DNA of 64,000 nt from Paucibacter sediminis (GTDB lineage Bacteria; Pseudomonadota; Gammaproteobacteria; Burkholderiales; Burkholderiaceae_C): positions 4,195,001-4,259,000 of the forward strand of contig NZ_CP116346.1 of NCBI RefSeq assembly GCF_030254645.1, written 5' to 3'. The notes below the pieces were generated by a model. That model searched no databases and had not been told where the DNA came from. It was given only the letters and a program-made list of their open reading frames with translations. Shown in pieces: positions 4,056 to 17,891 of this stretch (position 1 is the stretch's first letter; every line of letters starts with the position of its first letter). The translations under genes were made by a program, and so were the position numbers.

Positions 4056-4508
4056 TCAGGGATGCAGGTAGACGAAGCCCTCGCGCGCCTGCAACCTGGC
4101 CACCTCGGCCACGCCCGAGGGCACGATCTTGGCTTCCATTGCCACCTTGTCGGGCGAGATCTTGCGTGCGGCAAGGGTGTTGTTGCAGACCCTGAATTCC
4201 ACACCCTGGCCGGCCAGATCGCCGATGGCGCCAGCGAAGGGCTGGCCCTGCGGGGTGTTGGCGCCGTCGAGCAGAAAGTCGATGCCCGCGCCATGGCTCA
4301 CCACCACGATCTTCGCCGTTGGGTCGGCCGCCAGATGGTTGCGAATATTACCCATGGCCCTGGCGGCCTGGGCCACGCCCTCGCTCAGGTGGTAGACCAC
4401 CTTGACGCCCGCATCGGCGGCAAGGGCGGTTGCCGCGGGCAGGGCCAACGACAGGCTCAGGCCCAGCGCGGCAAGGCCACGCACCAGCATTCGGCGTTGA
4501 ATTGACAT
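4056..4508 (-). CDS. Secreted DsrE-family protein
   Basis: A 150-residue protein with an N-terminal export signal (RRMLVRGLAALGLSLSLALPAATALAA; Tat-like) followed by a DsrE/DsrF-type fold of about 115 residues. DsrE-family proteins bind or transfer sulfur, usually through a cysteine. Here a single cysteine lies in RVCNNTLAARKI near residue 109, and a VVVSHGAGIDFLLDG stretch typical of the family precedes it. It is transcribed away from the transporter gene at 4641, and the shared spacer holds a candidate ArsR site. A role in periplasmic sulfur trafficking is inferred from the fold and neighbours; the substrate is unknown. Confidence 0.8.
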   Translation of the reverse strand: MSIQRRMLVRGLAALGLSLSLALPAATALAADAGVKVVYHLSEGVAQAARAMGNIRNHLAADPTAKIVVVSHGAGIDFLLDGANTPQGQPFAGAIGDLAGQGVEFRVCNNTLAARKISPDKVAMEAKIVPSGVAEVARLQAREGFVYLHP

Positions 4509-4539: not shown

Positions 4540-4558
4540 ACATCAGCAGCTGCGCATA
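4540..4558. promoter_or_regulatory. Candidate ArsR operator, site 1
   Basis: ACATC-AGCAGCT-GCGCATA matches the pattern ANATM-N7-GCGVATA, seen at five places in this island. It lies in the divergent spacer between the DsrE-like gene (start 4508) and the YeeE-like transporter (start 4641), about 32 bases from the first and 83 from the second. The assignment to the ArsR regulator at 10849 is an inference. Confidence 0.5.
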
Positions 4559-4640
4559 TTAGGATTTAAAAGCAAATTGTCCCGAATTGATCTGGGGCAA
4601 ACGCGCATAGCCGAAGCAAAAGCAGATCAAGGCCGCCATC

Positions 4641-5768
4641 ATGCCGCTGGAATCCATCCTCGAATCGCTCGGTCAGGCCAAGGCCCTGGCCGGTGGCGGG
4701 CTGATCATCGGTTTTGTGTTCGGCTTCTTTGCCCAGCGTTCGCGTTTCTGCCTGCGTTCGGCCACGATCGAGTTCTCGCGCGGCGCGCCGGGCGGCAAGC
4801 TGACGGTGTGGTTGTTTGCCTTTGCCACCGCCTTGCTGTCCACCCAGGCGCTGATCGCGCTGGGCCAGGCCGATGTCAGCGCGGCGCGCCAGCTGGCGGC
4901 GCGCGGCAGCCTCTCTGGCGCGGCGATCGGCGGCGCGCTGTTCGGCATCGGCATGATTCTGGCGCGTGGCTGCTCCAGCCGCCTACTGGTGCTGGCCGCG
5001 CAGGGCAATCTGCGCTCGGTGTTGTCGGGCCTGGTGTTCGCGGTCACCGCGCAGGCCGCCTGGACCGGCGTGCTGGCCCCTCTGCGCGAGCTGATCTCGG
5101 CCTGGTGGACGGTGGAGGGGGGCGCGGCGCGCGACCTCATCGCCATCACCGGCATCGGCCGCGGCGGGGCCTTGCTTTTTGCCGCCGTCTGGCTTGCGGC
5201 GGCGGTGCGCTGGGCCTGGCACCAGCGTGTGCCCGCCTGGGGTTGGGCTGGCGCCATCATGGTGGGCCTGGCGATCGGCGCGGCCTGGTGGTTCACCTCC
5301 TACGTGGCGCTGCTGGGCTTGGACGCGGAGGCCGCACCGGTGCAGGCCCTGAGCTTCACCGGCCCCTCGGCCGAGGTGCTGACGCGGGTGCTGTTCGCCC
5401 CTAGCAAGCCGCCCACCTTCGACCTGGGCCTGGTGCCCGGCGTGTTCCTGGGCTCCTTCCTGGCCGCCGCGCTGTTTCGCGAGCTGAAGCTGGAGGGCTT
5501 TGCCGGCGGCGCCAGCATGCGGCGTTACCTGGTGGGTGCGGTGTTGATGGGTTTCGGCGGCATGCTGGCGGGTGGCTGCGCGGTCGGCGCGGGCCTGTCG
5601 GGCGCGGCGGTGTTCACCGTCACCTCCTGGGTCACCCTGTCCTGCATGTGGGGCGCCGCGGCCCTCACCGATCACTGGGTCGATCGCCGCGCCGAGCGCC
5701 TGGCCGCCCAGCCCGTGGCCGCCCTGGATCAGGCGGTGCCCCAGTTCTCCCGCAGCTTCAGGGCCTGA
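4641..5768 (+). CDS. YeeE/YedE-family (TsuA-like) thiosulfate transporter
   Basis: A 375-residue inner-membrane protein with about nine to ten hydrophobic segments. It shows the two conserved cysteine stretches of the YeeE/YedE family, ARGCSSRLL and GGCAVGAGLSG, plus the N-terminal QRSRFCLRSA. Members such as TsuA import thiosulfate by passing it between cysteine residues. Next to sox genes it probably brings sulfur species into the cell or balances the periplasmic pool. The start at 4641 gives MPLESILESLG just before the first membrane segment. The cytochrome c4 gene begins 18 bases downstream, so the two may be cotranscribed. Confidence 0.88.
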   Translation: MPLESILESLGQAKALAGGGLIIGFVFGFFAQRSRFCLRSATIEFSRGAPGGKLTVWLFAFATALLSTQALIALGQADVSAARQLAARGSLSGAAIGGALFGIGMILARGCSSRLLVLAAQGNLRSVLSGLVFAVTAQAAWTGVLAPLRELISAWWTVEGGAARDLIAITGIGRGGALLFAAVWLAAAVRWAWHQRVPAWGWAGAIMVGLAIGAAWWFTSYVALLGLDAEAAPVQALSFTGPSAEVLTRVLFAPSKPPTFDLGLVPGVFLGSFLAAALFRELKLEGFAGGASMRRYLVGAVLMGFGGMLAGGCAVGAGLSGAAVFTVTSWVTLSCMWGAAALTDHWVDRRAERLAAQPVAALDQAVPQFSRSFRA

Positions 5769-5786
5769 TGCCCTAGAGTGAGGTTC

Positions 5787-6404
5787 ATGCGCTACACCCA
5801 ACTCCGTCGTTCAGCGGCCGCCGGCTGGCTGATCCTCATGCTTGCTGCGGGCGCCCAGGCCCAGGATGCGCAGCTCGCCCGTGCCGAGGAGATCGTGCAG
5901 GGCAAATGCTTCATCTGCCATGGCGTCGATGGCGAGAGTTCCAGCCCGGTGTTTCCGCGCCTGGCCGGCCAGCATGGTGCTTATGTGGCGCGCCAGCTGG
6001 CCGACTACCAGGCCGGCAAGCGCAAGAGCAGCACCATGCAGGCGATGGTGGAAGACCTGAATGCCGAAGACTTCGCCGCGCTGGGCCGCTATTTCGAGTC
6101 GCGCAAGCCGGTGGCCCACGCGGTGGACGACAGCGAACTGGCCCAGGTGGGGCGCTTTGTCTTCATGCGCGGCAATCCCTATAGCGGCGTGGCCGCCTGT
6201 GCCGGCTGCCATGGCCCCAAGGGTCATGGCACGCCGCAGCTGCCGCGCCTGGCCGGCCAGCACGCGCAGTACACCGAGAACCAGCTGCGCCTGTTCAACA
6301 AGCGCGAACGCAGCAACGACAACGCGGTGATGCACGCCATCGCCAGCAAGCTCAGCGAGCTGGAGCTGAAGGCCGTGTCGGCCTACATCAGTGGTTTGAA
6401 CTGA
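5787..6404 (+). CDS. Dihaem cytochrome c4
   Basis: A periplasmic c4-type cytochrome of 205 residues with a signal peptide ending near AGAQA and two similar haem domains: CFICH in the first and CAGCH in the second. Each is followed by the repeat PRLAGQH and a methionine (TMQAM, VMHAI) as likely sixth ligand. Cytochrome c4 usually passes electrons from periplasmic donors to terminal oxidases, so here it may take electrons from SoxAX or flavocytochrome c. The ATG at 5787 follows GTGAGG at 5 bases; an in-frame GTG at 5778 would add three residues. The stop lies 3 bases from that of the convergent fccB. Confidence 0.92.
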   Translation: MRYTQLRRSAAAGWLILMLAAGAQAQDAQLARAEEIVQGKCFICHGVDGESSSPVFPRLAGQHGAYVARQLADYQAGKRKSSTMQAMVEDLNAEDFAALGRYFESRKPVAHAVDDSELAQVGRFVFMRGNPYSGVAACAGCHGPKGHGTPQLPRLAGQHAQYTENQLRLFNKRERSNDNAVMHAIASKLSELELKAVSAYISGLN

Positions 6405-6407
6405 GGC

Positions 6408-7700
6408 TTACCCAAGCATGTCGGTCCAGATGTTCTCCGCCCAGGAGAGGGCATAACGCCCCTCGACCTGGTTGGCGGCGGCGGACACGCCGCCCGAGCC
6501 GGGCACCGGCTTGAAGGCCTTCTCGGCGGCGTCGTACTGGTGCACCGAGGCCACATGCACGACGTCGCGCGCGGTGACGAAGCTGTAGCAGGTGTTCATC
6601 AGCACCGGCGTGGCATTGACGGCCTCGCCCCTGAGCAGCTGGATGATGGCCGCGGCCGCCAGCTTGGCCTGCTGGTTGGCCATATGGCCGGACTTGGGCA
6701 TGCCCGGGCCGGGGAAGACGGCGTCGCCCAGCACATGCACGCCGGGCAGGGCGGTGGACTCCATGCTCAGCCAGTGCACGCCGGCCCAGCGTTGGTTGAT
6801 GTTCACCACGCCGGCCTGCAGCGCCAGGTCGGCGGCACGCTGCGGTGGAATCACGTTCAGCACATCGGCCTTGACGTCCTCGAACTCCAGGCGTGCCAGC
6901 TTGCCAGCATTGGCGACCTCCTTCAGCTCGGCATTGGGGCGGTACTCGAGGATGCCCTCGTAATGCTGCTTGAAGGCCTTCTCGAACAGCGCCTTCTTGG
7001 ACTGGATCTCGGGGTTGGCATCCAGCACCAGCAGCTTGGACTTGGGCTTGGCCGTCTTCAGGTAGCTGGCGATCATGCAGGCCCGCTCATAGGGGCCGGG
7101 CGGGCAGCGGTAGGGTGCCTTGGGAATGCTCATCGCCACCACGCCGCCGTCGGCCATGTCGGTCAGCTGCTTGCGCAGCGCCACCGTCTGCGGGCCGGCC
7201 TTCCAGCTGTGCAGCACCTGGCCGCTGGCCAGCGCGGCCTGCAGGCCGCCGATCTGATCGCTCATGAAATCGATGCCGGGCGAGAGCACCAGGCGGTCGT
7301 AGGCCAGCGCGCTGCCGTCGGCCAGACGCACCGACTTGGCCACCGGGTCGATCGCCACCACCTCGCCCTGCACCAGCTTCACGCCCAGGGCCTTGAGGCC
7401 CTCGTAGCCGCGCGTGATGTCGCTCATCTGCTTGTGGCCGCCCAGCACCAGGTTGGAGATCGGGCAGGAGACGAAACTGGGCTGGCGCTCCACCAGGGTC
7501 ACGTCCACATTGCCGCCCCACAGGCGCAGATAGCGCGCCGCGGTGGCGCCCCCAAAGCCGCCGCCCACCACCACCACCCGGCCGATCGACGGCCCCGTGC
7601 CCATGCTTGCGCAGCCCGTCAGGCCCATGCCCGCCAGCGCCAGGCCGCCCAGCAGCAGCTGGCGACGTTGCAGTTCGGATTGTTGATGCGCTTTTGTCAT
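6408..7700 (-). CDS. fccB: FccB, flavoprotein subunit of flavocytochrome c sulfide dehydrogenase
   Basis: This 430-residue periplasmic flavoenzyme oxidises sulfide and passes electrons to its cytochrome partner. A twin-arginine signal (LQRRQLLLGGLALAGMGLTGC) is followed by the FAD-binding motif VVVVGGGFGG at 42-51. The cysteines corresponding to the redox-active pair of the family appear to be C199 in YRCPPGPYER and C371 in MNTCYSF; the second FAD stretch is VHVLGDAV. The C-terminal part is the sulfide-dehydrogenase-specific domain. It is downstream of fccA with 10 bases between, so the two form an operon. Confidence 0.93.
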   Translation of the reverse strand: MTKAHQQSELQRRQLLLGGLALAGMGLTGCASMGTGPSIGRVVVVGGGFGGATAARYLRLWGGNVDVTLVERQPSFVSCPISNLVLGGHKQMSDITRGYEGLKALGVKLVQGEVVAIDPVAKSVRLADGSALAYDRLVLSPGIDFMSDQIGGLQAALASGQVLHSWKAGPQTVALRKQLTDMADGGVVAMSIPKAPYRCPPGPYERACMIASYLKTAKPKSKLLVLDANPEIQSKKALFEKAFKQHYEGILEYRPNAELKEVANAGKLARLEFEDVKADVLNVIPPQRAADLALQAGVVNINQRWAGVHWLSMESTALPGVHVLGDAVFPGPGMPKSGHMANQQAKLAAAAIIQLLRGEAVNATPVLMNTCYSFVTARDVVHVASVHQYDAAEKAFKPVPGSGGVSAAANQVEGRYALSWAENIWTDMLG

Positions 7701-7710
7701 GCGATGCTCC

Positions 7711-8037
7711 TCAGGGCTTGGCCGGCAGCGCGGCGAAATGCTTCACGACCAGCTTGAGCTGCTCCTCGCTATAGCCCTTGGCGATCTGGTGCATGATGGT
7801 GGCCGGCTGGGCACCGCTGCGGAAGTCGGCCAGCAGCTTGAGCAGCTCGTCCTCCTTGCGGCCGGCGAGCGTCTTCATCTCGCCCTTGGCCACGCCGGCC
7901 GTGCCATGGCAGTTGGCGCAGGTGGCCGCGAGGTTGCGCGCCAGATGAGGGTCGGCCTTGGGATCCTGTGCCCAGCTCGCGCCGGCCAGCAAGGCCAGGC
8001 TCAGCGGCCATGCGCCGCGTACTCTCGTCCCTGTCAT
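7711..8037 (-). CDS. fccA: FccA, cytochrome c subunit of sulfide dehydrogenase
   Basis: A 108-residue exported monohaem cytochrome, the electron-accepting subunit for FccB. It has a signal peptide (start MTGTRVRGAWPLSLALLAGASWAQ), one haem site CANCH, and a methionine in ATIMHQIAKGY as probable axial ligand. The ATG at 8037 was chosen because AGGAG lies 8 to 9 bases upstream; a longer reading to 8094 would put non-signal sequence in front. Many FccA proteins are dihaem, so this is the short monohaem form. The promoter must lie in the 130-base spacer shared with the gene at 8167. Confidence 0.9.
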   Translation of the reverse strand: MTGTRVRGAWPLSLALLAGASWAQDPKADPHLARNLAATCANCHGTAGVAKGEMKTLAGRKEDELLKLLADFRSGAQPATIMHQIAKGYSEEQLKLVVKHFAALPAKP

Positions 8038-8156
8038 GAGCATCTCCTGAGTTGGCGGGCCTGCGCTTGTGGGCCCGGCTGCCAGCATCCGCACAAGCCG
8101 CGCCTCGGCCCATCGGGACTAACCATGATGGTCGACAGGCGATGGAGCGCGCTGTA

Positions 8157-8175
8157 ATATCAGCGCATGCGAATA
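8157..8175. promoter_or_regulatory. Candidate ArsR operator, site 2
   Basis: ATATC-AGCGCAT-GCGAATA fits the pattern ANATM-N7-GCGVATA exactly. It lies between fccA and the SoxH-like gene and overlaps the latter's predicted ATG at 8167. Either that start codon is wrong or a regulator bound here would cover the transcription start and the first codons. Confidence 0.55.
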
Positions 8176-9108
8176 AACAGTTTGATTGCTCGCTTGTGCA
8201 TGCTGGTGGCCGCCCTGGGCGCGAGCTTGAGCCAGGCCCAGGCCGTGCACGCCGTGCAGGTGGCGCCGCAAACCTGGATGGTGCAGGGTGAATCGGCGCT
8301 GGGCTCCACCGCCAATCGCAATTTCATCTCCAACGCCGCCTTCGTCGTCACGCCCGAGGGCGTGCTGGTGGTGGATGCGCTGGGCTCGCCGGCGCTGGCG
8401 CAGGAGCTGATCCAGGAAATCCGCAAGATCACGCCGGCACCGATCCGCTATGTGGTGATGACGCATTACCACGCCGACCACATCTACGGCCTGCAGGCCC
8501 TCAAGGCCGCCGGTGCCCAGGTGATCGCACAGCAGGACGGGCAGATCTACCTGCATTCCGACACCGCCGCCCTGCGCCTCAAGGCCAGCCGCGAGGAGTT
8601 GTTCCCCTGGATCGACGAAAAGACCACGCTGGTGCCGGCGGACCGCTGGATCGCCGGCGCACTGACGTTGCGGATGGGCGGTCTGGACTTCCAGATCCAG
8701 CCGGTAGGCCCGGCCCACACGCCCGAGGACCTGGTGGTCTATGTGCCGCAGCTCAAGCTGCTGCTGGCCGGCGACATCGTGTTCCGCGGCCGCGTGCCCT
8801 TTGTGGGCCAGGCCGACAGCGGGCGCTGGATCGGCGCACTGGACAAGCTGCTGGCCTTCGACACCCAGGTGATCGTGCCCGGCCATGGCCCGGTGTCGAG
8901 CACCGCGCGCGAGGATCTGCAGATGACGCGCGACTACCTGGCCTTTCTGCGCCAGCGCATGGGTGAGGCGGCGCGCAATATGGAACCCTTCGAGGAAGCC
9001 TATGCGCGCACCGACTGGTCGCGCTTCGCCAAGCTGCCGCTGTTTGCCGCCGCCAACCGCATCAATGCCTACAACACCTATCTGCTGATGGAGCAGGAGG
9101 GGCGATGA
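8167..9108 (+). CDS. SoxH-like periplasmic metallo-beta-lactamase fold hydrolase
   Basis: A 313-residue exported protein (signal peptide to about residue 26) of the metallo-beta-lactamase superfamily. The binuclear metal site is complete: THYHADH (H100, H102, D104, H105), H184 in GPAHTPED, D203 in LLAGDIVF and H240 in VPGHGP. Similar proteins in sox clusters are called SoxH; their substrate is not established, and they are not antibiotic-resistance enzymes. No good ribosome site precedes 8167; a shorter start at 8200 would leave a weaker signal peptide. It overlaps the next gene by ATGA, so the two are translationally coupled. Confidence 0.85.
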   Translation: MRINSLIARLCMLVAALGASLSQAQAVHAVQVAPQTWMVQGESALGSTANRNFISNAAFVVTPEGVLVVDALGSPALAQELIQEIRKITPAPIRYVVMTHYHADHIYGLQALKAAGAQVIAQQDGQIYLHSDTAALRLKASREELFPWIDEKTTLVPADRWIAGALTLRMGGLDFQIQPVGPAHTPEDLVVYVPQLKLLLAGDIVFRGRVPFVGQADSGRWIGALDKLLAFDTQVIVPGHGPVSSTAREDLQMTRDYLAFLRQRMGEAARNMEPFEEAYARTDWSRFAKLPLFAAANRINAYNTYLLMEQEGR

Positions 9109-9581
9109 GGCGGCGCGCCTGTCTGTTCAGCCTGCTGGCGCTTGCAGCGCCGGCGGCCCTGGCCCTGCCGGCTACGCGCGGCGAGCTGGTGTCCTGGCCC
9201 GAGGTGCGTCTGCTGGACGGCCAGGCCTGGCAGGGCGCCCAGGGGCGCGCCGTGGTGCTGGTGTTCTGGTCACCCGATTGCGGTTTCTGCGAGCGCCACA
9301 ACGTCCATCTGGAGAAGCTCTGGCGCGCCGCGCAGGGCCAGGCGCTGACGGTGCTGGGCGTGGTGCGTTCGAGCGACGCGGCCGCCGTGGCCCGCCATGC
9401 GGCCGCACGCGGCTGGAGTTTTCCCAACACGCTGGACGCCGAGGCACTGGCCGCGGCGCTGAGCCGCCGCCGCTCGGTGCCTCTGACGGCGGTGGTGGAC
9501 CGCCGGGGCCGGCTCGTCGAGGTCGTGCCGGGCGAGATGTTCGAGGCTGATGTGCTGGCCTATCTGCGCCTGGCGCAGTAG
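9105..9581 (+). CDS. Periplasmic thioredoxin-like protein (SoxW/TlpA type)
   Basis: A 158-residue exported thioredoxin-fold protein. A signal peptide (to about residue 20) precedes the redox motif CGFC (C59-C62) in FWSPDCGFCERHN. The cis-proline position is in RRSVPLTAVVD, and a C-terminal helix follows. Sox-associated thioredoxins (SoxW, SoxS) keep SoxYZ cysteines reduced; that role is inferred from the operon with the SoxH-like gene. The start overlaps the preceding stop as ATGA. It ends 4 bases before the stop of the convergent AhpD-like gene. Confidence 0.82.
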   Translation: MRRRACLFSLLALAAPAALALPATRGELVSWPEVRLLDGQAWQGAQGRAVVLVFWSPDCGFCERHNVHLEKLWRAAQGQALTVLGVVRSSDAAAVARHAAARGWSFPNTLDAEALAAALSRRRSVPLTAVVDRRGRLVEVVPGEMFEADVLAYLRLAQ

Positions 9582-9585
9582 CGCC

Positions 9586-9948
9586 TTATTGGCCCGGCGT
9601 GGCGCCCGGCCCGCCGAACTCCTCGAAGGCCTGCAAAGCCTGGGCCGCGTACATCAGCGAAGGCCCGCCGCCCATATAGATGCACATGCCCAGCATGTCC
9701 TCGAATTCGGCGCGGCTGCAGCCCAGCTTGACCAGCGCCTCGGCATGAAAGCCGACGCAGGGATCGCAGCGCGAGGCCACCGACAGCGCCATGGCGATCA
9801 ACTCCTTGGTCTTCTTGTCCAGCGTGCCGTCGCGCGTGGCCGCCTGCGCCAGCGCCGAAAAGCCGCGGGTGGTGTCGGGGATGTCGGCACGCAGCTTGGC
9901 CAGCGAAGCGGAAACCTCGGCAGTGATGGCGCGGTAGGACTTGCTCAT
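9586..9948 (-). CDS. AhpD-like (carboxymuconolactone decarboxylase family) protein
   Basis: A 120-residue cytoplasmic helical protein with the AhpD-type thiol motif C61-D-P-C64-V-G-F-H68. Family members with this motif act as thiol-disulfide or peroxide-linked reductants. The start MSKSYRAITAEV is the first plausible one; the frame is open further upstream, but that part covers the promoter. It is divergent from the cytochrome gene at 10087, and the spacer holds two copies of the island's shared motif. A role in persulfide or peroxide chemistry is inferred; the substrate is unknown. Confidence 0.8.
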   Translation of the reverse strand: MSKSYRAITAEVSASLAKLRADIPDTTRGFSALAQAATRDGTLDKKTKELIAMALSVASRCDPCVGFHAEALVKLGCSRAEFEDMLGMCIYMGGGPSLMYAAQALQAFEEFGGPGATPGQ

Positions 9949-9961
9949 GCGATGGTCTTTA

Positions 9962-9988
9962 AAATAAGCGAATGCGCATATATTCGCT
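9962..9988. promoter_or_regulatory. Candidate ArsR operator, site 3, with perfect inverted repeat
   Basis: AAATA-AGCGAAT-GCGCATA fits the shared pattern. The same stretch also contains a perfect 7-base inverted repeat, AGCGAAT (9967-9973) and ATTCGCT (9982-9988), with 8 bases between. It lies 14 to 40 bases upstream of the AhpD-like start at 9948. Confidence 0.55.
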
Positions 9989-10041
9989 GGCGACCGGCCC
10001 GGCCGCCTTGAGCCAAGGCAAAGTCTGGTGCGCAGATGAAA

Positions 10042-10060
10042 TATCATCGTGCGCGGATAA
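10042..10060. promoter_or_regulatory. Candidate ArsR operator, site 4
   Basis: ATATC-ATCGTGC-GCGGATA fits the shared pattern and ends 26 bases before the ATG of the cytochrome gene at 10087, a position where a bound repressor would block its promoter. Confidence 0.5.
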
Positions 10061-10086
10061 ATGGAAGCAATTGAACTGGAGACACG

Positions 10087-10404
10087 ATGACGAGCAAACC
10101 CTACGCCCTGGCGCTCAGCCTGGTGGCCCTGCTGGCCAGCCCCTTGGCACATGCCAATCTGGCGCTGGCCCAGAAGAATTCATGCATGGCCTGCCATGCG
10201 GTGGACAAGAAGCTGGTGGGCCCGGCCTATGCCGAGGTGGCGAAGAAATATGCCGGCCAGGCCGACGCCGTCGACAAGCTCAGCGCCAGCATCAAGGCCG
10301 GCGGCTCGGGTAAATGGGGCCCGGTGCCGATGCCGGCCCAGGCCGCGCTCAGCGATGCCGACGCCAAGACGCTGGCGGCCTGGGTGCTTGGCGGCGCCAA
10401 GTAA
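10087..10404 (+). CDS. Cytochrome c551/c552-type monohaem cytochrome
   Basis: A small exported class I cytochrome of 105 residues with a signal peptide (to about residue 23), haem site CMACH at 33-37 and a probable axial methionine M82 in GPVPMPAQ. The mature protein of about 82 residues is typical of c551/c552 electron shuttles between periplasmic dehydrogenases and oxidases. TGGAGACACG before the ATG gives a ribosome site. The second cytochrome gene starts 44 bases after its stop, so the two probably share a transcript. The physiological donor is not known from sequence. Confidence 0.88.
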   Translation: MTSKPYALALSLVALLASPLAHANLALAQKNSCMACHAVDKKLVGPAYAEVAKKYAGQADAVDKLSASIKAGGSGKWGPVPMPAQAALSDADAKTLAAWVLGGAK

Positions 10405-10448
10405 GCGCAATACCATGGTCGCCCAGCCGCGATGACCGGGAGCAGGCC

Positions 10449-10793
10449 ATGAAGATCGCCAAATTTGCCATGCTTGCGGCCGCCTTGTGCGCCGCTGGCC
10501 CGCTGGCCTGGCATGCCAGCGCTCAATCCAGCGACGACGCCAGCATCTTCAAGGATGCCGATCTGGCCCTGGGTCAGAAGCTGATCCAGGAGCATCGCTG
10601 CGCCGAATGCCATGCGCGCAAGTTCGGCGGCGATGGCTCGGCGGTCTATCGGCCGCTGGAGCGTGTCAAGACCGCCGGCAGCCTGCGCGGCATGGTGGAG
10701 CAGTGCAATACCGAGCTCAATCTGGGCATGTTTCCCGAGGAAGTGAGCGCGGTGGCGGCGGTGCTCAACAAGCAGCATTACAGGTTCAAGTGA
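10449..10793 (+). CDS. Small exported monohaem cytochrome c
   Basis: A 114-residue exported protein with a signal peptide ending at WHASA (about residue 25) and a single haem motif CAECH at 51-55 near the start of the mature chain. Possible axial methionines are M82 and M94. It is not an obvious member of a named Sox cytochrome family. The ATG at 10449 is preceded by GGAGCAGG; the frame is open further upstream inside the preceding gene, but only this start gives a signal peptide. The first and third haem-motif residues are standard, so haem attachment by the Ccm system is expected. Confidence 0.82.
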   Translation: MKIAKFAMLAAALCAAGPLAWHASAQSSDDASIFKDADLALGQKLIQEHRCAECHARKFGGDGSAVYRPLERVKTAGSLRGMVEQCNTELNLGMFPEEVSAVAAVLNKQHYRFK

Positions 10794-10819
10794 GCCGCCC
10801 CTAGCTTCGCGCCACGCTT

Positions 10820-10838
10820 ATATCCGTTCTTGCGAATA
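10820..10838. promoter_or_regulatory. Candidate ArsR operator, site 5 (autoregulatory)
   Basis: ATATC-CGTTCTT-GCGAATA fits the shared pattern and lies 10 bases before the GTG (10849), or 31 before the ATG (10870), of the arsR gene. ArsR-family genes are usually autoregulated from a site overlapping their promoter. Confidence 0.55.
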
Positions 10839-10848
10839 CAATCGGCGC

Positions 10849-11226
10849 GTGCCACTCTCAGAAGCCGCCATGGAAGACCGTCCGCCCGAAGACAAGGTTT
10901 TCGAATCTGTCGCCGAACTGTTCTCGCTCTTGTCCACGCCGATCCGGCTGAAGATCATCAGCGCGGTCTGCCATGGCGAGAAGAATGTGTCGGAGCTGCT
11001 GGAAGCGATCGAGACCACGCAGCCCAATATGTCGCAGCATCTCTCCACGCTCTACCGCAGCGGCGTGCTGTCCAAGCGCCGCGAGGGCACGCAGATCTAC
11101 TACCGGCTGCAGAGCGAGCGCGTCGCCGCGCTGTGCCGCGCCGTCTGCACCCAGGTGGCGATCGAACTCGATCCGGCCGCCGAGATCGAGGTCAAGGAAC
11201 GGCTGATGCCGGCAGCGGCACGCTGA
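10849..11226 (+). CDS. ArsR-family regulator, probable persulfide sensor of the sulfur island
   Basis: A winged-helix repressor of 125 residues from the GTG at 10849, or 118 from the ATG at 10870. The recognition helix is in TTQPNMSQHLSTLYRSG and the wing in KRREGTQIYYRL. C41 (SAVCHGEK, end of helix 2) and C96/C100 (ALCRAVC, C-terminal helix) lie where SqrR and BigR carry the cysteine pair that forms a sulfur bridge and releases DNA. ArsR-family SoxR proteins regulate sox genes in other proteobacteria. It is the last gene of the sulfur island and probably controls the five motif sites described here; that link is inference. Confidence 0.88.
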   Translation: MPLSEAAMEDRPPEDKVFESVAELFSLLSTPIRLKIISAVCHGEKNVSELLEAIETTQPNMSQHLSTLYRSGVLSKRREGTQIYYRLQSERVAALCRAVCTQVAIELDPAAEIEVKERLMPAAAR

Positions 11227-11238
11227 ACCAGGGGAAAC

Positions 11239-11982
11239 TCAGCCCCTCTCGTCGCTGCGCAGGGTCGCCTGCAGCAGCGCCAGATCCAGACGCGCGCGCT
11301 GCGGCTCGACCTGCAGCAGCACCCCCTGGCGCCGGAGCGCGCTGATGGCGCGGCTGGCCGTCTCCATGCTCATATTGAGCATCGCACCGATATCGCCACG
11401 CGTGGGCAGCCAGATCCAGGGTTGCTGCTCATCGCCCTGGGCGTATTGGCTCAGCTTGTGCACCAGGCGCAGCACGCGGCGTTGTGCCGGCCCCATCGAC
11501 AGCTCTGCCAACCATTCCTCCGCTTGCGCAAGTGCATGTTGCCAGCGCTGCATCAGTGCGGTTGCCAGACCGACATGCGACTGGCTCAACTCGGCCACCA
11601 GGCCGCGCGGAATGCGGCAGACCTCCAGCGGCGTGCTGGCCAGTGCGGTACTGCCATAGGGCTGCTTGAGCAGCGCCTCCAGGCCGATCAGATCGCCGCG
11701 CCCGGCCAGCCTCACCACCCGGCGTTCGCCGCTGGCGTTGACGCGCTCCAGCCGCACCACGCCCGAGCGCACGGTGAAGAGCGCTCCGGCTTGCTGACCG
11801 ATGTCGTACAGGGCCTGACCGGGCTCCAGCCGCTGTGCGGCGATATGCACATGGATACAGTCCAGCGCCTGCTCCGACAGCGTGCCGAACAGCGCCAGGC
11901 GCCGCAGCTCGCAGCGCGCGCAGGCCTGCGCCTGCGGATGCACGGGGCCTTGCCGATGGAGTGAGACGACGGCGGCGTGCAT
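11239..11982 (-). CDS. Crp/Fnr-family transcription regulator
   Basis: A 247-residue regulator with a cyclic-nucleotide-binding-type domain (about 30-150) and a C-terminal helix-turn-helix (TRGDIGAMLNMSMETASRAISAL). The N-terminus has C21-A-R-C24, and C122 lies in the beta-barrel; these match three of the four iron-sulfur cysteines of E. coli FNR. The position of FNR's C29 is alanine, so a classical FNR cluster looks incomplete; C42 is nearby but out of register. It is the last gene of the run from the RND adaptor, 21 bases after the OsmC gene, and convergent with arsR. Confidence 0.88.
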   Translation of the reverse strand: MHAAVVSLHRQGPVHPQAQACARCELRRLALFGTLSEQALDCIHVHIAAQRLEPGQALYDIGQQAGALFTVRSGVVRLERVNASGERRVVRLAGRGDLIGLEALLKQPYGSTALASTPLEVCRIPRGLVAELSQSHVGLATALMQRWQHALAQAEEWLAELSMGPAQRRVLRLVHKLSQYAQGDEQQPWIWLPTRGDIGAMLNMSMETASRAISALRRQGVLLQVEPQRARLDLALLQATLRSDERG

Positions 11983-12003
11983 GTCGGGCTCAGCGGGCGC
12001 GCT

Positions 12004-12450
12004 TCATTTCAGGCGCTGCGCGTCGGCGTCCCAGACCTGCACCTCCACCGGGAAGCCCTGGCCGACGCTCTGCGTGACGGTGCAGAAGCTCTCGAACTGC
12101 GCCAGCACGCGGTCCAGATGCTGCAGCTGCGCGGCGGGCACGCCCAGGTGCAGCTGCGCCTGCATGGCCAGCACGCGCAAGCGCCCCTCGGCATTGCGGC
12201 CGACCTCCGCGCTGACGCGGCAGCTCAGCGGCTCGGGCGCCTGCTTGTACTTGCGCAGCGCGAACAGCAGCGAATCGCTGAGGCAGTTGGCCACCGCGCT
12301 GCACAGCAGCTGCACCGGCGAAGGGCCCAGGCCGCTGCCCATCGGCGGCGGCTCGTCGCACAGCAGCTCGGGCAGGGTGCCGCCAAAGCTGGCCTTGAAG
12401 CAGTAGTCCTGCTGCTGCCGGAGTTCGATGCTGATGATTTCCTTGTCCAT
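12004..12450 (-). CDS. OsmC-family protein
   Basis: A 148-residue OsmC/YhfA-family protein. The conserved cysteine pair is C56 (SAVANCLSDSLL) and C123 (FCTVTQSVGQG), as in thiol-dependent organic hydroperoxide reductases. Some OsmC proteins also reduce persulfides and polysulfides. The ATG at 12450 is preceded by CAGGAAGCC. It lies between the DUF2892 gene (29-base gap) and the Crp/Fnr gene (21-base gap) on the same strand, so it is probably in the RND operon. A protective role against reactive sulfur or peroxides is inferred. Confidence 0.88.
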   Translation of the reverse strand: MDKEIISIELRQQQDYCFKASFGGTLPELLCDEPPPMGSGLGPSPVQLLCSAVANCLSDSLLFALRKYKQAPEPLSCRVSAEVGRNAEGRLRVLAMQAQLHLGVPAAQLQHLDRVLAQFESFCTVTQSVGQGFPVEVQVWDADAQRLK

Positions 12451-12727: not shown

Positions 12728-15700
12728 TCAGGCGGGCAACAGCAAGTGCAGGCGCTTGCGGTAGGCCATGTAGTAAAGGGTCGGGATCACCACCAGGGTC
12801 AGGATGGTGGAGACGAAGATGCCGAAGATCAGCGAGATCGCGAGGCCGTTGAAGATCGGGTCATCGAGGATGAAGAAGGCGCCCATCATGGCGGCCAGCC
12901 CGGTCAGCATGATGGGCTGGGCACGCGTGATGGCCGAGCTGACGATGGCGCGCTCAAACACCATGCCCTCGCGCAGCTGCAGATTGATGAAGTCCACCAG
13001 CAGGATGGAGTTGCGCACGATGATGCCGGCCAGCGCGATCATGCCGATCATGCTGGTGGCGGTGTATTGCGCGCCCAGCAGGGCGTGGCCGGGCATCACG
13101 CCGATGATGGTGAGCGGGATCGGCGCCATGATGATGAGCGGCGTCAGGTAGGAGCCGAACTGCGCCACCACCAGCAGATAGATCAACACCAGGCCCACCG
13201 CATAGGCCGCGCCCATGTCGCGGAAGGTCTCGTAGGTGATCTGCCATTCGCCGTCCCATTTGATCGCGTAGCCGCGGTAGGCATCGGCCGGCTGGCTGAT
13301 GAAATGCTCGGCCAGCGGGGCGCCGTCGGGGGCCTTGATCTTGGCGAGCTCGCTGCGCATGCCGAACATGCCGTAGAGCGGGCTGTCGATCTTGCCGGCC
13401 ATGTCGGCCACCACCATGTTCAGCGGCAGCAGGTCCTTGTGATAGACGGGCTGCTCGCGCAGCGTATCGCTCACCGTCACCAGCTCGCGGATCGGCACCA
13501 GCTTGCCGTTGCTCGCGCGCATCGAGAGCGAGAGCAGGGCGTTCAGGTCGCCCTGCGATTCGGGCGCCAGCTGCAGCATGGCCGCGGCCGGGTACTTGCT
13601 CTGGTCGTGCAGATAGCTCACCGCCTCGCCGGCCTGGGCCGTGCGCAGGGTGCTGACGATGGCCTGCTGCGGCACGCCCAGCAGCGCGGCCTTGCGGCGG
13701 TCCACCAGCAGCAGCTTGCGCGGCGCCGCGGCGATGCTGCTGTCGTCCACGTCGACCAGGCCGGCCTGCTTGTCGAACAGGGCGCGCACCGCCTTGGCCA
13801 CCTGCTGGCGGCCCTCGGCCTCGGGGCCGTAGATCTCGGCCACGATGGGCGAGAGCACCGGCGGGCCGGGCGGCACCTCCACCACCTTGACGTTCGCGCC
13901 GAAGCGCTGGCCGATCGCCTGCAGCGCCGGGCGCACGCGCGTGGCGATGGCATGGCTCTGCTCATGGCGGGCATGCTTGTCCACCAGATTCACCTGGATG
14001 TCGCCCTGCTCGCTGCCGGCGCGCAGATAGTACTGGCGCACCAGGCCGTTGAAATTGATGGGCGCGGCGGTGCCGGCATAGGCCTGGTAGTCGGTCACCT
14101 CGGGCACGCTGGCCAGGTGCGCGCCGAGCTCGTGCAACACCGCCGCGGTCTGCTCCAGCGGCGTGCCGGCCGGCATGTCCACCACCACCTGGAACTCGGA
14201 CTTGTTGTCGAAGGGCAGCATCTTCAAGAGCACCAGACCGGCCGCCGGCAAGGCCAGCGAAACGACGATCAGGCCGGCGATGCCAAGGCCCAGCCAGCTG
14301 CGGTTGCGGCCGCCGCGCTGGCTGTCCAGCAGCGGCGCAAAAACGCGCTCGAACAGCGGCGCCAGCTTGGCGGAGAGGCCATGCAGGGCATGCGGGTCGG
14401 CATGTGCATCGGCGGGCAGGGCCTTCATCCAGATGCGCGCCAGCCAGGGCGTGACGACGAAGGCGATCGCCAGCGACAAGAGCATGCCCATGCTGGCATT
14501 GATGGGGATGGGGCTCATGTACGGGCCCATCAGACCCGAGACGAAGGCCATCGGCAGCAGCGCGGCGATCACCGTCAGCGTGGCCAGGATGGTGGGGCCG
14601 CCCACCTCGTCCACCGCGCCGGGGATCAGCTCCCTGAGGCTGCGGCCGGGGAAGAGCTGCTGGTGGCGGTGGATGTTCTCCACCACCACGATGGCGTCGT
14701 CCACCAGGATGCCGATCGAGAAGATCAGCGCGAACAGCGAGACGCGGTTCAGCGTGAAGCCCCAGGCCCAGGAGGCGAACAGGGTGACGGTGAGCGTCAG
14801 GATCACCGCGGTGCCGACGATGGCGGCCTCGCGCCGGCCCAGCGCGATGAAGACCAGGGCCACCACCGAGGCGGTGGCGAACAACAGCTTCTGGATCAGC
14901 TTGCCGGCCTTGTCATTCGCGGTAGCGCCGTAGTTGCGCGTCTCGGCCACCGACACCTCGGCCGGGATCACGGTGTTGCGCAGCCCCTCGACGCGCTGCA
15001 TCACCGCATTCGCCACATCGATGGCGTTCTCGCCCGCCTTCTTGGTGATGGCGATGGTGACGGCCGGGTACTCCTGGCCCTTGCCATCCACCTTCTCGCC
15101 ATGCCAGACATAACGGCTGGGCGTGAGCGGGCCGTCTTCCACCGTGGCCACGTCGCGCAGGAACACCGGCTTGCCGGACTGCACGCCGACGATCAATTCG
15201 GCCACATCGCGGGCGTCGGTCAGGAAGGGTCCGGCCTCCAGCGCAATCGCCTGGTTGTTCTGCAACAAATCGCCCAGCGGCAGGCCCAGATTGGCCGACT
15301 GCAAGGCCTGGCGCAGCTCGGCCACCGTCAGGCCGCTGCCGTTCAGGCGCGCCGGGTCGATCTGCACGCGCAGCGCGCGGCCCGGGCCGCCGATGCTCGT
15401 GACCTCGCGCGTGCCGGGCACGCGCTTGAGTTCGATCTCCATGCTGTGCGCCACGCGCTCGAGGTCGAAGGCGCCGGTCTGGGCCTGCTTGGCGTACAGG
15501 GTCAGCGTCACGATGGGCACATCGTCAATGCCCTTGGGCTTGATGATGGGGGGCAGCACGCCCAGGTTCTGCGGCAGCCAGTCGGCATTCGCGGCCACGG
15601 TGTCGTGCAGGCGCACCAGCGCCTCGGTGCGCGGCACGCCCACCTTGAACTGCACCGTCAGCACCGCCAGCCCGGGGCGCGACACCGACATCACATGCTC

Positions 15701-15970
15701 GATGCCGGCAATCTGCGCCAGCACCTGTTCGGCCGGCGTGGCCACCATCTGCTCCACGTCCCTGGCACTCGCGCCAGGGAAGGGGATCAGCACATTGGCC
15801 ATGGTGACGTTGATCTGCGGCTCCTCCTCGCGCGGCGTCACCAGCACCGCGAAGATGCCCAGCAACAGGGCCACCAGGGCCAGCAAGGGGGTGATCTGGG
15901 CCGACTGGAAGAAGGCGGCGATGCGCCCGGAGGCGCCCAGGCGGTTCGGCGTGGCGTGCGATGTATTCAT
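12728..15970 (-). CDS. RND-family efflux pump, inner-membrane subunit
   Basis: A 1080-residue proton-driven RND transporter with the family layout: one N-terminal membrane segment (about 28-48), a large periplasmic loop, a block of membrane segments, a second loop and a final membrane block. The conserved acidic pair of the proton relay is in GILVDDAIVVVENIHRH. It pairs with the adaptor encoded 9 bases upstream. No outer-membrane factor is in this operon, so it must use one encoded elsewhere. Family comparison places it in the HAE-type drug/metabolite branch rather than CzcA-type metal pumps, but the substrate cannot be read from sequence. Its neighbours suggest sulfur stress. Confidence 0.92.
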   Translation of the reverse strand: MNTSHATPNRLGASGRIAAFFQSAQITPLLALVALLLGIFAVLVTPREEEPQINVTMANVLIPFPGASARDVEQMVATPAEQVLAQIAGIEHVMSVSRPGLAVLTVQFKVGVPRTEALVRLHDTVAANADWLPQNLGVLPPIIKPKGIDDVPIVTLTLYAKQAQTGAFDLERVAHSMEIELKRVPGTREVTSIGGPGRALRVQIDPARLNGSGLTVAELRQALQSANLGLPLGDLLQNNQAIALEAGPFLTDARDVAELIVGVQSGKPVFLRDVATVEDGPLTPSRYVWHGEKVDGKGQEYPAVTIAITKKAGENAIDVANAVMQRVEGLRNTVIPAEVSVAETRNYGATANDKAGKLIQKLLFATASVVALVFIALGRREAAIVGTAVILTLTVTLFASWAWGFTLNRVSLFALIFSIGILVDDAIVVVENIHRHQQLFPGRSLRELIPGAVDEVGGPTILATLTVIAALLPMAFVSGLMGPYMSPIPINASMGMLLSLAIAFVVTPWLARIWMKALPADAHADPHALHGLSAKLAPLFERVFAPLLDSQRGGRNRSWLGLGIAGLIVVSLALPAAGLVLLKMLPFDNKSEFQVVVDMPAGTPLEQTAAVLHELGAHLASVPEVTDYQAYAGTAAPINFNGLVRQYYLRAGSEQGDIQVNLVDKHARHEQSHAIATRVRPALQAIGQRFGANVKVVEVPPGPPVLSPIVAEIYGPEAEGRQQVAKAVRALFDKQAGLVDVDDSSIAAAPRKLLLVDRRKAALLGVPQQAIVSTLRTAQAGEAVSYLHDQSKYPAAAMLQLAPESQGDLNALLSLSMRASNGKLVPIRELVTVSDTLREQPVYHKDLLPLNMVVADMAGKIDSPLYGMFGMRSELAKIKAPDGAPLAEHFISQPADAYRGYAIKWDGEWQITYETFRDMGAAYAVGLVLIYLLVVAQFGSYLTPLIIMAPIPLTIIGVMPGHALLGAQYTATSMIGMIALAGIIVRNSILLVDFINLQLREGMVFERAIVSSAITRAQPIMLTGLAAMMGAFFILDDPIFNGLAISLIFGIFVSTILTLVVIPTLYYMAYRKRLHLLLPA

Positions 15971-15979
15971 GGCCAGTCC

Positions 15980-17050
15980 TCAGCGGATGCGCGCGGCGGC
16001 TTGCGGGTCCAGCGCGATCTTCTCGCCCACGCTCAGGCCGCTCAGCACCTCGACCTGCTCACCCCGCACGGCGCCCAGCCGGACCTGGCGCAGCAGCGGC
16101 TTGCCCTGGCCGTCCAACACGTAAAGGCCGCTCAGCTCGGCGCGCCTCACCACCGCCGTGCGCGGCACCGCGGGCGAGGCCGCGGCCGCGGCCACGCTGC
16201 CCGGCAACCAGACGCGCGCGAACATGCCGGGCACGGCACCCGTCAGCTTGGGCGCAAGATCGAGGCGCAGCTGCAGGGTGTGCGAACTGGCGTCGACGAT
16301 GGGCAGTTGCTGCACGCGCGTGGGAGCCAGCATGCCGCCGGCCAGCCCGGGGATTTCCACCATCGGCGCGCTGCCGGCGGCCAGGCCGGCGGCGATGCTT
16401 TGCGGCACATTCGCAGTGACGCGCAGCGCGCTGGGATCGTAGACCGTCACCAGGGCTCGCCCCGGCATGGCCATGTCGCCCAGGGTCACGGGCAGCTCGG
16501 CCACCACGCCGTCGTAGGGGCTGCGCACGGTGTTGAAACCGCTCTGCGTGCGCGCCACGGCCAGCTGGGCCAGCTGCGCATTCACCTGGGCCTGGGTGGC
16601 CTTGTATTGGGCCTCGGCCTGGTCCAGCGCGGCCTGGCTGATGTAGTGCTGCTTGTGCAGCAGCTGCTGGCGCTCGAACTCGCGGCTGGCCAGCTGCAGC
16701 GAGGCGCGCGCCGCCTGGGCCTGGGCCTCGCTGGCATTGGCCGCCTGTTCGGCGGCGCGGGCATCGATGCGCATCAGCACCTGGCCGGCCTTGACACGGT
16801 CGCCCGCCTTCACGTCCAGTTGCACGATCGCGCCCGCCACCTGGGCGGCCACCACGGTCTGGCGCAGGGCTTCCACCACGCCGTCCAGGCTCTGCGCCTG
16901 GCGGCCGCTGGCGGCGGCCACCGTCAGGCTGCGCAGCGCCGGCGCCGCAGGCGCTGCGTCTGCGGCCGCAGCGCCGATGCTCAGGCTGGCCAGCAACAGC
17001 CAGCGCCTGGGGCGCTGCAGGGGCGAGGGACGGGAGGCGTTGGTCTTCAT
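15980..17050 (-). CDS. RND efflux periplasmic adaptor (membrane fusion protein)
   Basis: A 356-residue HlyD/AcrA-type adaptor that links the RND pump to an outer-membrane channel. After an export signal the order is a lipoyl-like half (GAIVQLDVKAGDRVKAGQVLMRID), a coiled-coil hairpin (about 95-165), the second lipoyl half (FNTVRSPYDGVVAELPV) and beta-barrel plus membrane-proximal domains. The ATG at 17050 was chosen because it opens the signal sequence; an in-frame ATG at 17089 would lie inside the operator region. It is the first gene of the five-gene minus-strand operon. Confidence 0.9.
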   Translation of the reverse strand: MKTNASRPSPLQRPRRWLLLASLSIGAAAADAAPAAPALRSLTVAAASGRQAQSLDGVVEALRQTVVAAQVAGAIVQLDVKAGDRVKAGQVLMRIDARAAEQAANASEAQAQAARASLQLASREFERQQLLHKQHYISQAALDQAEAQYKATQAQVNAQLAQLAVARTQSGFNTVRSPYDGVVAELPVTLGDMAMPGRALVTVYDPSALRVTANVPQSIAAGLAAGSAPMVEIPGLAGGMLAPTRVQQLPIVDASSHTLQLRLDLAPKLTGAVPGMFARVWLPGSVAAAAASPAVPRTAVVRRAELSGLYVLDGQGKPLLRQVRLGAVRGEQVEVLSGLSVGEKIALDPQAAARIR

Positions 17051-17093
17051 GGCGCGGCTTCTTTCCTGCTCAGCCGGATGGCTGGACAATCAA

Positions 17094-17169: not shown

Positions 17170-17571
17170 ATGCCCTCAGACGCAGATGACGCCGCGCAAT
17201 CCGCCATGAAGACCTTGCCCGCGGCCGCGCTCGAGCAGGTGGCGGGCTATTTCCAGGCGCTCTCGGAGCCGACGCGCCTGCAGATCCTCAACCTGCTGCG
17301 TCAGCAGGAGCGCAAGGTGGGCGAGATTGCCGAGCTGTGCGGCTCCACCGCGGCCAATGTGTCGCGGCATCTCAGCATGCTGCAGCAACATGGGCTGGTG
17401 CTGCGCGAAAGCCGCGGCACCAGTGCCTATTACCGCATTGCCGACGCCACCGTCTACGAACTCTGCGACCTGGTCTGCGGCCAGATCGCTCGACAATCGG
17501 CACGCCTCATCGACGAGCGCGCCGCCTTCTTTCCACCCAGCAAGCCGACTGCCGGCAAGACATCGCCATGA
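17170..17571 (+). CDS. ArsR-family regulator of the RND module
   Basis: A 133-residue winged-helix repressor with HTH in IAELCGSTAANVSRHLSMLQQHG and wing in ESRGTSAYYRI. Cysteines are C57 at the start of the recognition region, where metal-sensing ArsR proteins carry ELCVCD, and C99/C103 in the C-terminal helix (YELCDLVC). The C-terminal CXXXC is shared with the other ArsR protein at 10849, but the helix-2 cysteine of SqrR is absent. The ATG at 17170 is preferred over a TTG at 17143. Its stop overlaps the rhodanese start, so they are coupled. The ligand (persulfide, metal or other) is uncertain. Confidence 0.88.
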   Translation: MPSDADDAAQSAMKTLPAAALEQVAGYFQALSEPTRLQILNLLRQQERKVGEIAELCGSTAANVSRHLSMLQQHGLVLRESRGTSAYYRIADATVYELCDLVCGQIARQSARLIDERAAFFPPSKPTAGKTSP

Positions 17572-17891
17572 ACCACGCCCTTCTGCAACTCGACCCTCTC
17601 GCCGCCCTGCAGGCCCTGCAAGCCGGTGGCTGCTGGCTGGTGGACGTGCGCGAAGCCCATGAGGTGGCGCGCGCCGCCTACGACCATGCGCAGGTCATCC
17701 ACCTGCCGCTGAGCGAGCTGGAGCGCCGCCATGCCGAGCTGCCGCGCGATGCCGATCTCATCATGGCCTGCGCCGCCGGTGGCCGTAGCCTGCAGGCCAT
17801 GCAATACCTGCTGCACCACGGTCACACGCGGGTGCGCAATCTGAGTGGGGGCTTGGGCGCCTGGCGCGCCCATGGCCTGCCGGTGCGCTGA
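17568..17891 (+). CDS. Single-domain rhodanese
   Basis: A 107-residue cytoplasmic sulfurtransferase of the rhodanese family. The entry motif is WLVDVREAHE (about 23-32) and the active-site loop is CAAGGRS with C68 as persulfide cysteine; the C-terminal NLSGGLGAWRAHGLP is typical. It overlaps arsR by ATGA. Rhodaneses next to sulfur-sensing ArsR regulators usually transfer sulfane sulfur between thiols. The DUF2892 protein of the opposite arm corresponds to the membrane part of YgaP-type fusions. Convergent with DUF4337 after 5 bases. Confidence 0.9.
   Translation: MNHALLQLDPLAALQALQAGGCWLVDVREAHEVARAAYDHAQVIHLPLSELERRHAELPRDADLIMACAAGGRSLQAMQYLLHHGHTRVRNLSGGLGAWRAHGLPVR

Follow-up and report, generated by a model that had tools for sequence, protein, structure and literature searches.

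A Predicted ArsR Operator and Regulon in a Sulfur-Oxidation Island of Paucibacter sediminis

A group of genes for sulfide and thiosulfate oxidation in Paucibacter sediminis is accompanied by a gene for an ArsR-type regulator (arsR; its product is called ArsR here), which raises the question of whether this protein controls its neighbors, through which DNA sites, and in response to what signal. This sulfur island lies in the window analyzed here, a 64,000-nt stretch of contig NZ_CP116346.1 (GCF_030254645.1; positions 4,195,001 to 4,259,000 of the forward strand). We propose, with a probability of roughly 0.8, that ArsR (positions 10870 to 11226 of the window) is an autoregulated dimeric repressor of the sulfide/thiosulfate-oxidation island that is released by sulfane sulfur acting on its own cysteines.

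Candidate operator sites in the sulfur island

A preliminary description of the window had reported five 19-base sites upstream of sulfur genes that share the pattern ANATM-N7-GCGVATA. A scan of both strands returned five exact matches, all of them on the forward strand and within the island (Table 1); dinucleotide shuffles (100 in total) contained 0.01 matches on average, and none reached five. The sites were thus recovered as described, save that the fourth lies at 10041 to 10059 instead of 10042 to 10060. Three of them take the form ATATC-N7-GCGRATA, as claimed, and the window holds no exact match outside the island. The whole 5,324,202-bp genome has eight exact matches, five of which are these, packed into 6.3 kb. 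Tolerating up to one mismatch raised the count to 154, versus 73 for the pattern read backwards, and therefore only the exact form discriminates. The three other exact matches in the genome (312547, 501920, and 3194918) reached matrix scores of 7.4, 8.8, and 4.9, respectively, and were rejected as not operator-like.

The arsR upstream regions of 110 related loci, including some near-duplicates and the window's own locus, were aligned to describe the element as a matrix. For the first matrix (20 bp), the collection of sites started from the five of the window and ended with 70, i.e., 69 from relatives plus the one at the window arsR. This matrix ranked the five sites first among all window positions (29.5, 27.9, 20.9, 19.4, and 16.1; next, 10.9). 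Because this test is partly circular, window-free matrices were grown from single sites of three related loci (L099, L037, and L134), with 64 unique training sites each and the window arsR excluded. Each of them detects an upstream site at 88 of 109 arsR genes, and the five window sites were again the top five of all window positions, with scores of 15.8 to 28.6 (next, 11.4 to 11.7). In most of the 110 loci, the left end of the arsR-upstream element is placed roughly 55 bp upstream of the start codon, and the element overlaps a −10 box, TANAAT, which argues for an autoregulated repressor. The predicted operator is a 16-bp dyad, AT-N2-G-N6-C-N2-AT, with a complementarity of 92 to 97% for AT/AT and of 69% for G/C. 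Overlap of its right half with the TANAAT box at arsR could also mean that the motif does no more than serve a special sigma factor as a promoter element. We find this barely credible, since the conserved left half (ATC..G) is too near that box for a −35 element and the element is a dyad concentrated at sulfur genes.

Conservation of the predicted regulon

Conservation of the sites was assessed in 80 related loci by scoring deduplicated upstream windows, for genes whose start had been located, with the first matrix at a threshold of at least 14. Sites precede arsR in 64 of 79 cases, the orthologous small cytochrome gene in 11 of 14, soxC in 9 of 13, fccA in 14 of 24, tsuA in 28 of 69, and soxH in 15 of 42. 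Counts were low for soxB (4/42), the redoxin gene (3/42), soxY (2/31), dsrE (2/32), the second cytochrome gene (1/33), soxZ (1/36), and arsR paralogues (1/9). No site was found before soxA (0/40), soxX (0/41), soxD (0/19), fccB (0/26), the cytochrome gene of window positions 5787 to 6404 (0/8), or the match to a second ArsR introduced below (0/1). The low count for dsrE may be explained by its location in relatives, where it often follows soxB in the same direction. For ahpD, the 110 related loci contain only two matches. As controls, random windows yielded 0/1600 hits, and regions upstream of other long open reading frames yielded 4/798.

Several observations weigh against our reading. The background is not zero: two matrix hits of at least 14 occur in 360 kb of the own genome, and a hit scoring 22.5 stands at genome position 1182468, which falls within an open frame of the opposite strand; this hit was attributed to chance. 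At the cut-off, 23 of 110 arsR upstream regions lack a site with the first matrix, as do 21 of 109 with the window-free ones. The count for arsR is in-sample, several related loci are near-duplicates, and the tsuA/arsR and fccA/soxH counts are not independent, because each pair often shares one divergent site. Site 4 would not make a convincing case by itself. Finally, soxB loci have hits in 16 of 20 cases from ArsR-bearing genomes (28 hits in 377 kb) but also, where the genome has no close ArsR, in 7 of 19 cases (14 hits in 308 kb), a contrast in the expected direction (Fisher P = 0.0095) that is not clean. The shared operator and ArsR regulon that had been put forward for the island are nonetheless supported, as predictions, by the window-free matrices, the conserved autoregulatory sites, and the conserved target sites in relatives. 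We regard this predicted regulon as well supported by comparison, and the five sites very probably bind the island-encoded ArsR.

A second ArsR gene is located 2.9 kb upstream of the window (L141:12079-12447, i.e., G000:C1:4192079-4192447), where it overlaps soxC and heads soxCDYZAXB. Its product has a cysteine at the place of ArsR C34 and none in helix 5. Before its sox operon this genome has only weaker operator-like hits, which score 14.3 and 12.7 and lie just upstream of this second gene. The five island sites could belong mainly to this second ArsR, or to both repressors together, which we judge unlikely. It is encoded in the same genome beside soxCD with those hits of its own, and operator hits also stand before more distant ArsR genes beside soxC (L183 and L189) or between such a gene and soxC (L176). 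A study on Hyphomicrobium provides a two-repressor precedent, SoxR with sHdrR (PMC12423496). However, the second ArsR has few close relatives (among 150 genomes, one match at 62% identity and ten more at 42 to 53%, several of these ten being the island ArsR family itself), yet sites are found in dozens of loci and right at the arsR genes. The distant ArsR proteins of L171, L176, L189, and L084 have cysteines at the C34 and C89 places in all four cases and at the C93 place in two, and three of their genes adjoin soxC in genomes without a close ArsR. The hits at distant soxC-linked genes suggest that related ArsR proteins share a similar operator, which may extend to the second ArsR and these distant relatives.

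The genes behind the sites carry the identities first proposed for them, as judged by Pfam and NCBIfam profiles: DsrE, Sulf_transp/TsuA-like, flavocytochrome c sulfide dehydrogenase (FCSD) flavoprotein, metallo-beta-lactamase fold (SoxH-like), AhpD/CMD, c-type cytochromes, and ArsR (Table 1). Site 2 overlaps the first in-frame ATG of the SoxH-like gene (8167), so that the in-frame ATG at 8200 is probably its start. The opposite strand immediately beyond arsR (11239 to 12450) encodes a regulator of the Crp/Fnr type and an OsmC-like protein, with no strong operator hit there.

Table 1. Predicted operator sites and genes of the sulfur island (window coordinates)
Feature	Position	Strand	Details
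Operator site 1	4540-4558	+	Between dsrE (−) and tsuA-like gene (+); first matrix 20.9, window-free 20.1-20.5
Operator site 2	8157-8175	+	Between fccA (−) and soxH-like gene (+); first matrix 27.9, window-free 27.2-27.3
Operator site 3	9962-9980	+	13 bp before AhpD/CMD start codon (−); first matrix 19.4, window-free 19.3-19.4
Operator site 4	10041-10059	+	Before two small cytochrome genes (+); first matrix 16.1, weakest of the five, window-free 15.8-15.9
Operator site 5, autoregulatory	10820-10838	+	Overlaps arsR −10 box TACAAT; 29.5 (in training set), 28.5-28.6 when left out
dsrE-like gene, predicted target	4056-4508	−	PF02635
YeeE/TsuA-like sulfur transporter gene, predicted target	4641-5768	+	PF04143; TsuA models below cut-off
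fccB, flavocytochrome c sulfide dehydrogenase flavoprotein	6408-7700	−	PF21706, PF09242
fccA, probable cytochrome subunit, first of fcc pair	7711-8037	−	PF13442 below cut-off; position beside fccB
SoxH-like metallo-hydrolase gene	8167-9108	+	PF00753; TIGR04559/TIGR04558 below cut-off
Thioredoxin/redoxin-like gene, downstream of soxH-like gene	9105-9581	+	PF08534
AhpD/CMD-like gene, predicted target	9586-9948	−	PF02627
Small c-type cytochrome gene, predicted target	10087-10404	+	PF00034
Second small cytochrome gene	10449-10793	+	No Pfam hit; called from CxxCH in translation
arsR, predicted ArsR/SmtB repressor, 118 amino acids, Cys 34, 89, 93	10870-11226	+	PF01022; GTG 10849 is another possible start

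Cysteines of ArsR and the proposed signal

ArsR belongs to the ArsR/SmtB superfamily (PF01022, 44.2 bits versus a cut-off of 22; NF033788, 83 bits versus 55), and its nearest solved relatives include BigR, SqrR, and HlyU. Structure alignment (VIA) of its model (predicted local distance difference test, pLDDT, 83.5; predicted template modeling score, pTM, 0.74) to these persulfide sensors gave Z scores of 12.2 to 13.3 and root mean square deviations of 1.9 to 3.8 over 92 to 98 residues, with numbering offsets of +10 for SqrR (6o8k and 6o8l), +11 for BigR (3pqj), and +7 for HlyU (4k2e); the best Z score, 13.7 for SmtB of M. smegmatis, ties with these values. The cysteines of ArsR had been described as placed like those of SqrR and BigR, which the alignments contradict. 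By both sequence and structure, C38 and C104 of HlyU map to S31 and A97 of ArsR, and C42 of BigR maps to S31; we take SqrR C41/C107 and BigR C108 to fall on the same places. Among 98 distinct family sequences, the window's included, S31 is replaced by cysteine in one and A97 in none; the family instead keeps C34 (98/98), C89 (98/98), and C93 (97/98; T in L123). In the model, C34 is just after helix 24-32, three residues beyond the SqrR-type place, whereas C89 and C93 are inside helix 83-100, with C93 four residues ahead of its SqrR-type counterpart. The cysteine spacing is accordingly 55 (C34/C89) or 59 (C34/C93), compared with 66 in HlyU (Cys38/Cys104) and presumably also in SqrR and BigR. 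As the canonical places are not matched, the argument for polysulfide sensing draws on gene context, not on cysteine position.

An ordinary SqrR/BigR/SoxR orthologue, sensing persulfide via the usual helix 2/helix 5 cysteine pair, would agree with the sulfur gene context and with BigR, SqrR, and HlyU being among the closest solved relatives. This identity is very unlikely, given that the canonical pair maps to S31/A97 by sequence and structure, that the spacing of 66 recurs in Hyphomicrobium SoxR as in HlyU, and that ArsR reaches 68.5 bits with the NCBIfam BigR equivalog, whose cut-off is 155, although this model is narrow (0/5 genome matches and 0/14 control genomes, including E. coli with YgaV, exceed it). 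In a tree of 54 ArsR proteins, BigR and HlyU fell beyond a weakly supported fork (81/56) with long branches, and this tree was set aside.

The three near-invariant thiols could also make ArsR a metal or metalloid sensor, with C34, C89, and C93 as the three thiolates that hold As(III), Cu(I), or Cd(II), and with an indirect control of sulfur genes. Atypical As(III) sensors are known in which helix 5 supplies every ligand of a trigonal cysteine site (PMC10509353), and CzrA and SmtB match the ArsR model about as well as SqrR does. We nevertheless consider such a sensor distinctly unlikely, because no metal-resistance gene is among the predicted targets and ArsR occurs together with soxB. In a family sample of 149 other genomes, 68 bear ArsR (E of about 1e-30 or better, G091 being counted at 1.2e-30), and 63 of these 68 also have soxB over the cut-off; five have ArsR only, 19 soxB only, and 62 neither (Fisher P = 8.7e-19, uncorrected for shared ancestry). 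In one of the five ArsR-only genomes (G016), soxB is split into two pieces. In a class-wide sample, the family profile matched 3 of 274 genomes (E of 1e-22 or better), this genome among them and all three from the family to which the window belongs; the ArsR family therefore seems narrow.

By the precedent of the ArsR family, an ArsR dimer would bind the 16-bp dyad over or beside the promoters of arsR, dsrE/tsuA, fccAB/soxH, ahpD, and the two small cytochrome genes, repressing the island when oxidizable sulfur is absent. Gene context by itself suggests that ArsR probably senses sulfane sulfur via C34, C89, and C93; modification of C34, just after helix 2, and of C89 and C93 in helix 5 would then release the protein from DNA. 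More tentatively, and with a likelihood that we place a little short of even, a narrow Burkholderiales ArsR subfamily may have evolved a second, independent sulfane-sulfur switch that consists of C34 together with C89 (and C93), is shifted along both helices relative to the SqrR site, and controls sox, fcc, and sulfur-transport genes via an operator of its own.

A third ArsR gene, inside the window (17206 to 17568) and with a C-X3-C motif in helix 5 (YELCDLVCG), adjoins a rhodanese gene (17562 to 17888) and a resistance-nodulation-division (RND) efflux pair (12728 to 17089). Several related loci contain comparable ArsR genes (LCDLVCG or LCELVCG), and the third ArsR is possibly a further thiol sensor. 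In a genome without a close ArsR, a gene for a BigR-like ArsR protein with a seemingly canonical cysteine pattern is found beside sox genes (L175:7774, minus strand).

Relation to known sulfur regulators

ArsR repressors of sulfur oxidation are already known, i.e., SoxR and sHdrR (PMC10451225 and PMC12423496) as well as SqrR, which is cited there. New here are the ArsR subfamily, its predicted operator and regulon, and its displaced cysteines; a search of the open literature, which did not cover RegPrecise, found no published betaproteobacterial ArsR regulator of sox genes. In PMC10509353, the persulfide sensors SqrR, BigR, HlyU, and YgaV belong to cluster 4 of a sequence similarity network (SSN) of the ArsR family, and one helix 2/helix 5 cysteine pair is common to all known persulfide sensors of that network. 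A 2025 study reports that many ArsR proteins encoded beside shdr (sulfur-oxidation) genes are devoid of that pair and may work differently (PMC12423496). The ArsR family described here is a case of this type, for which an operator is now defined, a regulon is predicted, and three cysteines are known to be nearly invariant. Five short DNA probes and three point mutants would allow a direct test of the question of mechanism, and the operator is searchable for sulfur oxidation in Burkholderiales.

SoxR of Hyphomicrobium denitrificans (PMC10451225) resembles ArsR in being an ArsR-fold repressor of sulfur-oxidation genes, with several operators in one sulfur region and a second related repressor in the genome, but it senses via Cys50/Cys116 at a spacing of 66, whereas ArsR has Cys 34, 89, and 93, with Ser31/Ala97 at the matching places. 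ArsR shares fold and sulfur gene context with SqrR (Rhodobacter), BigR (Xylella), HlyU, and YgaV, although other ArsR proteins tie on fold; it lacks their canonical cysteine pair and stays below the BigR model cut-off. The SqrR operator, given as ATTC-N8-GAAT in PMC9774250, matches the ArsR dyad in its 16-bp frame and in the AT that closes it on either side, and differs in the inner half-site (TTC..GAA versus G..C in ArsR). Finally, the H2O2-sensing ArsR protein RexT, whose switch consists of adjacent Cys40/Cys41 on helix 3, unlike the island ArsR, which has no adjacent cysteines, likewise carries its cysteines outside the SqrR-type site on the ArsR fold (PMC8960804).

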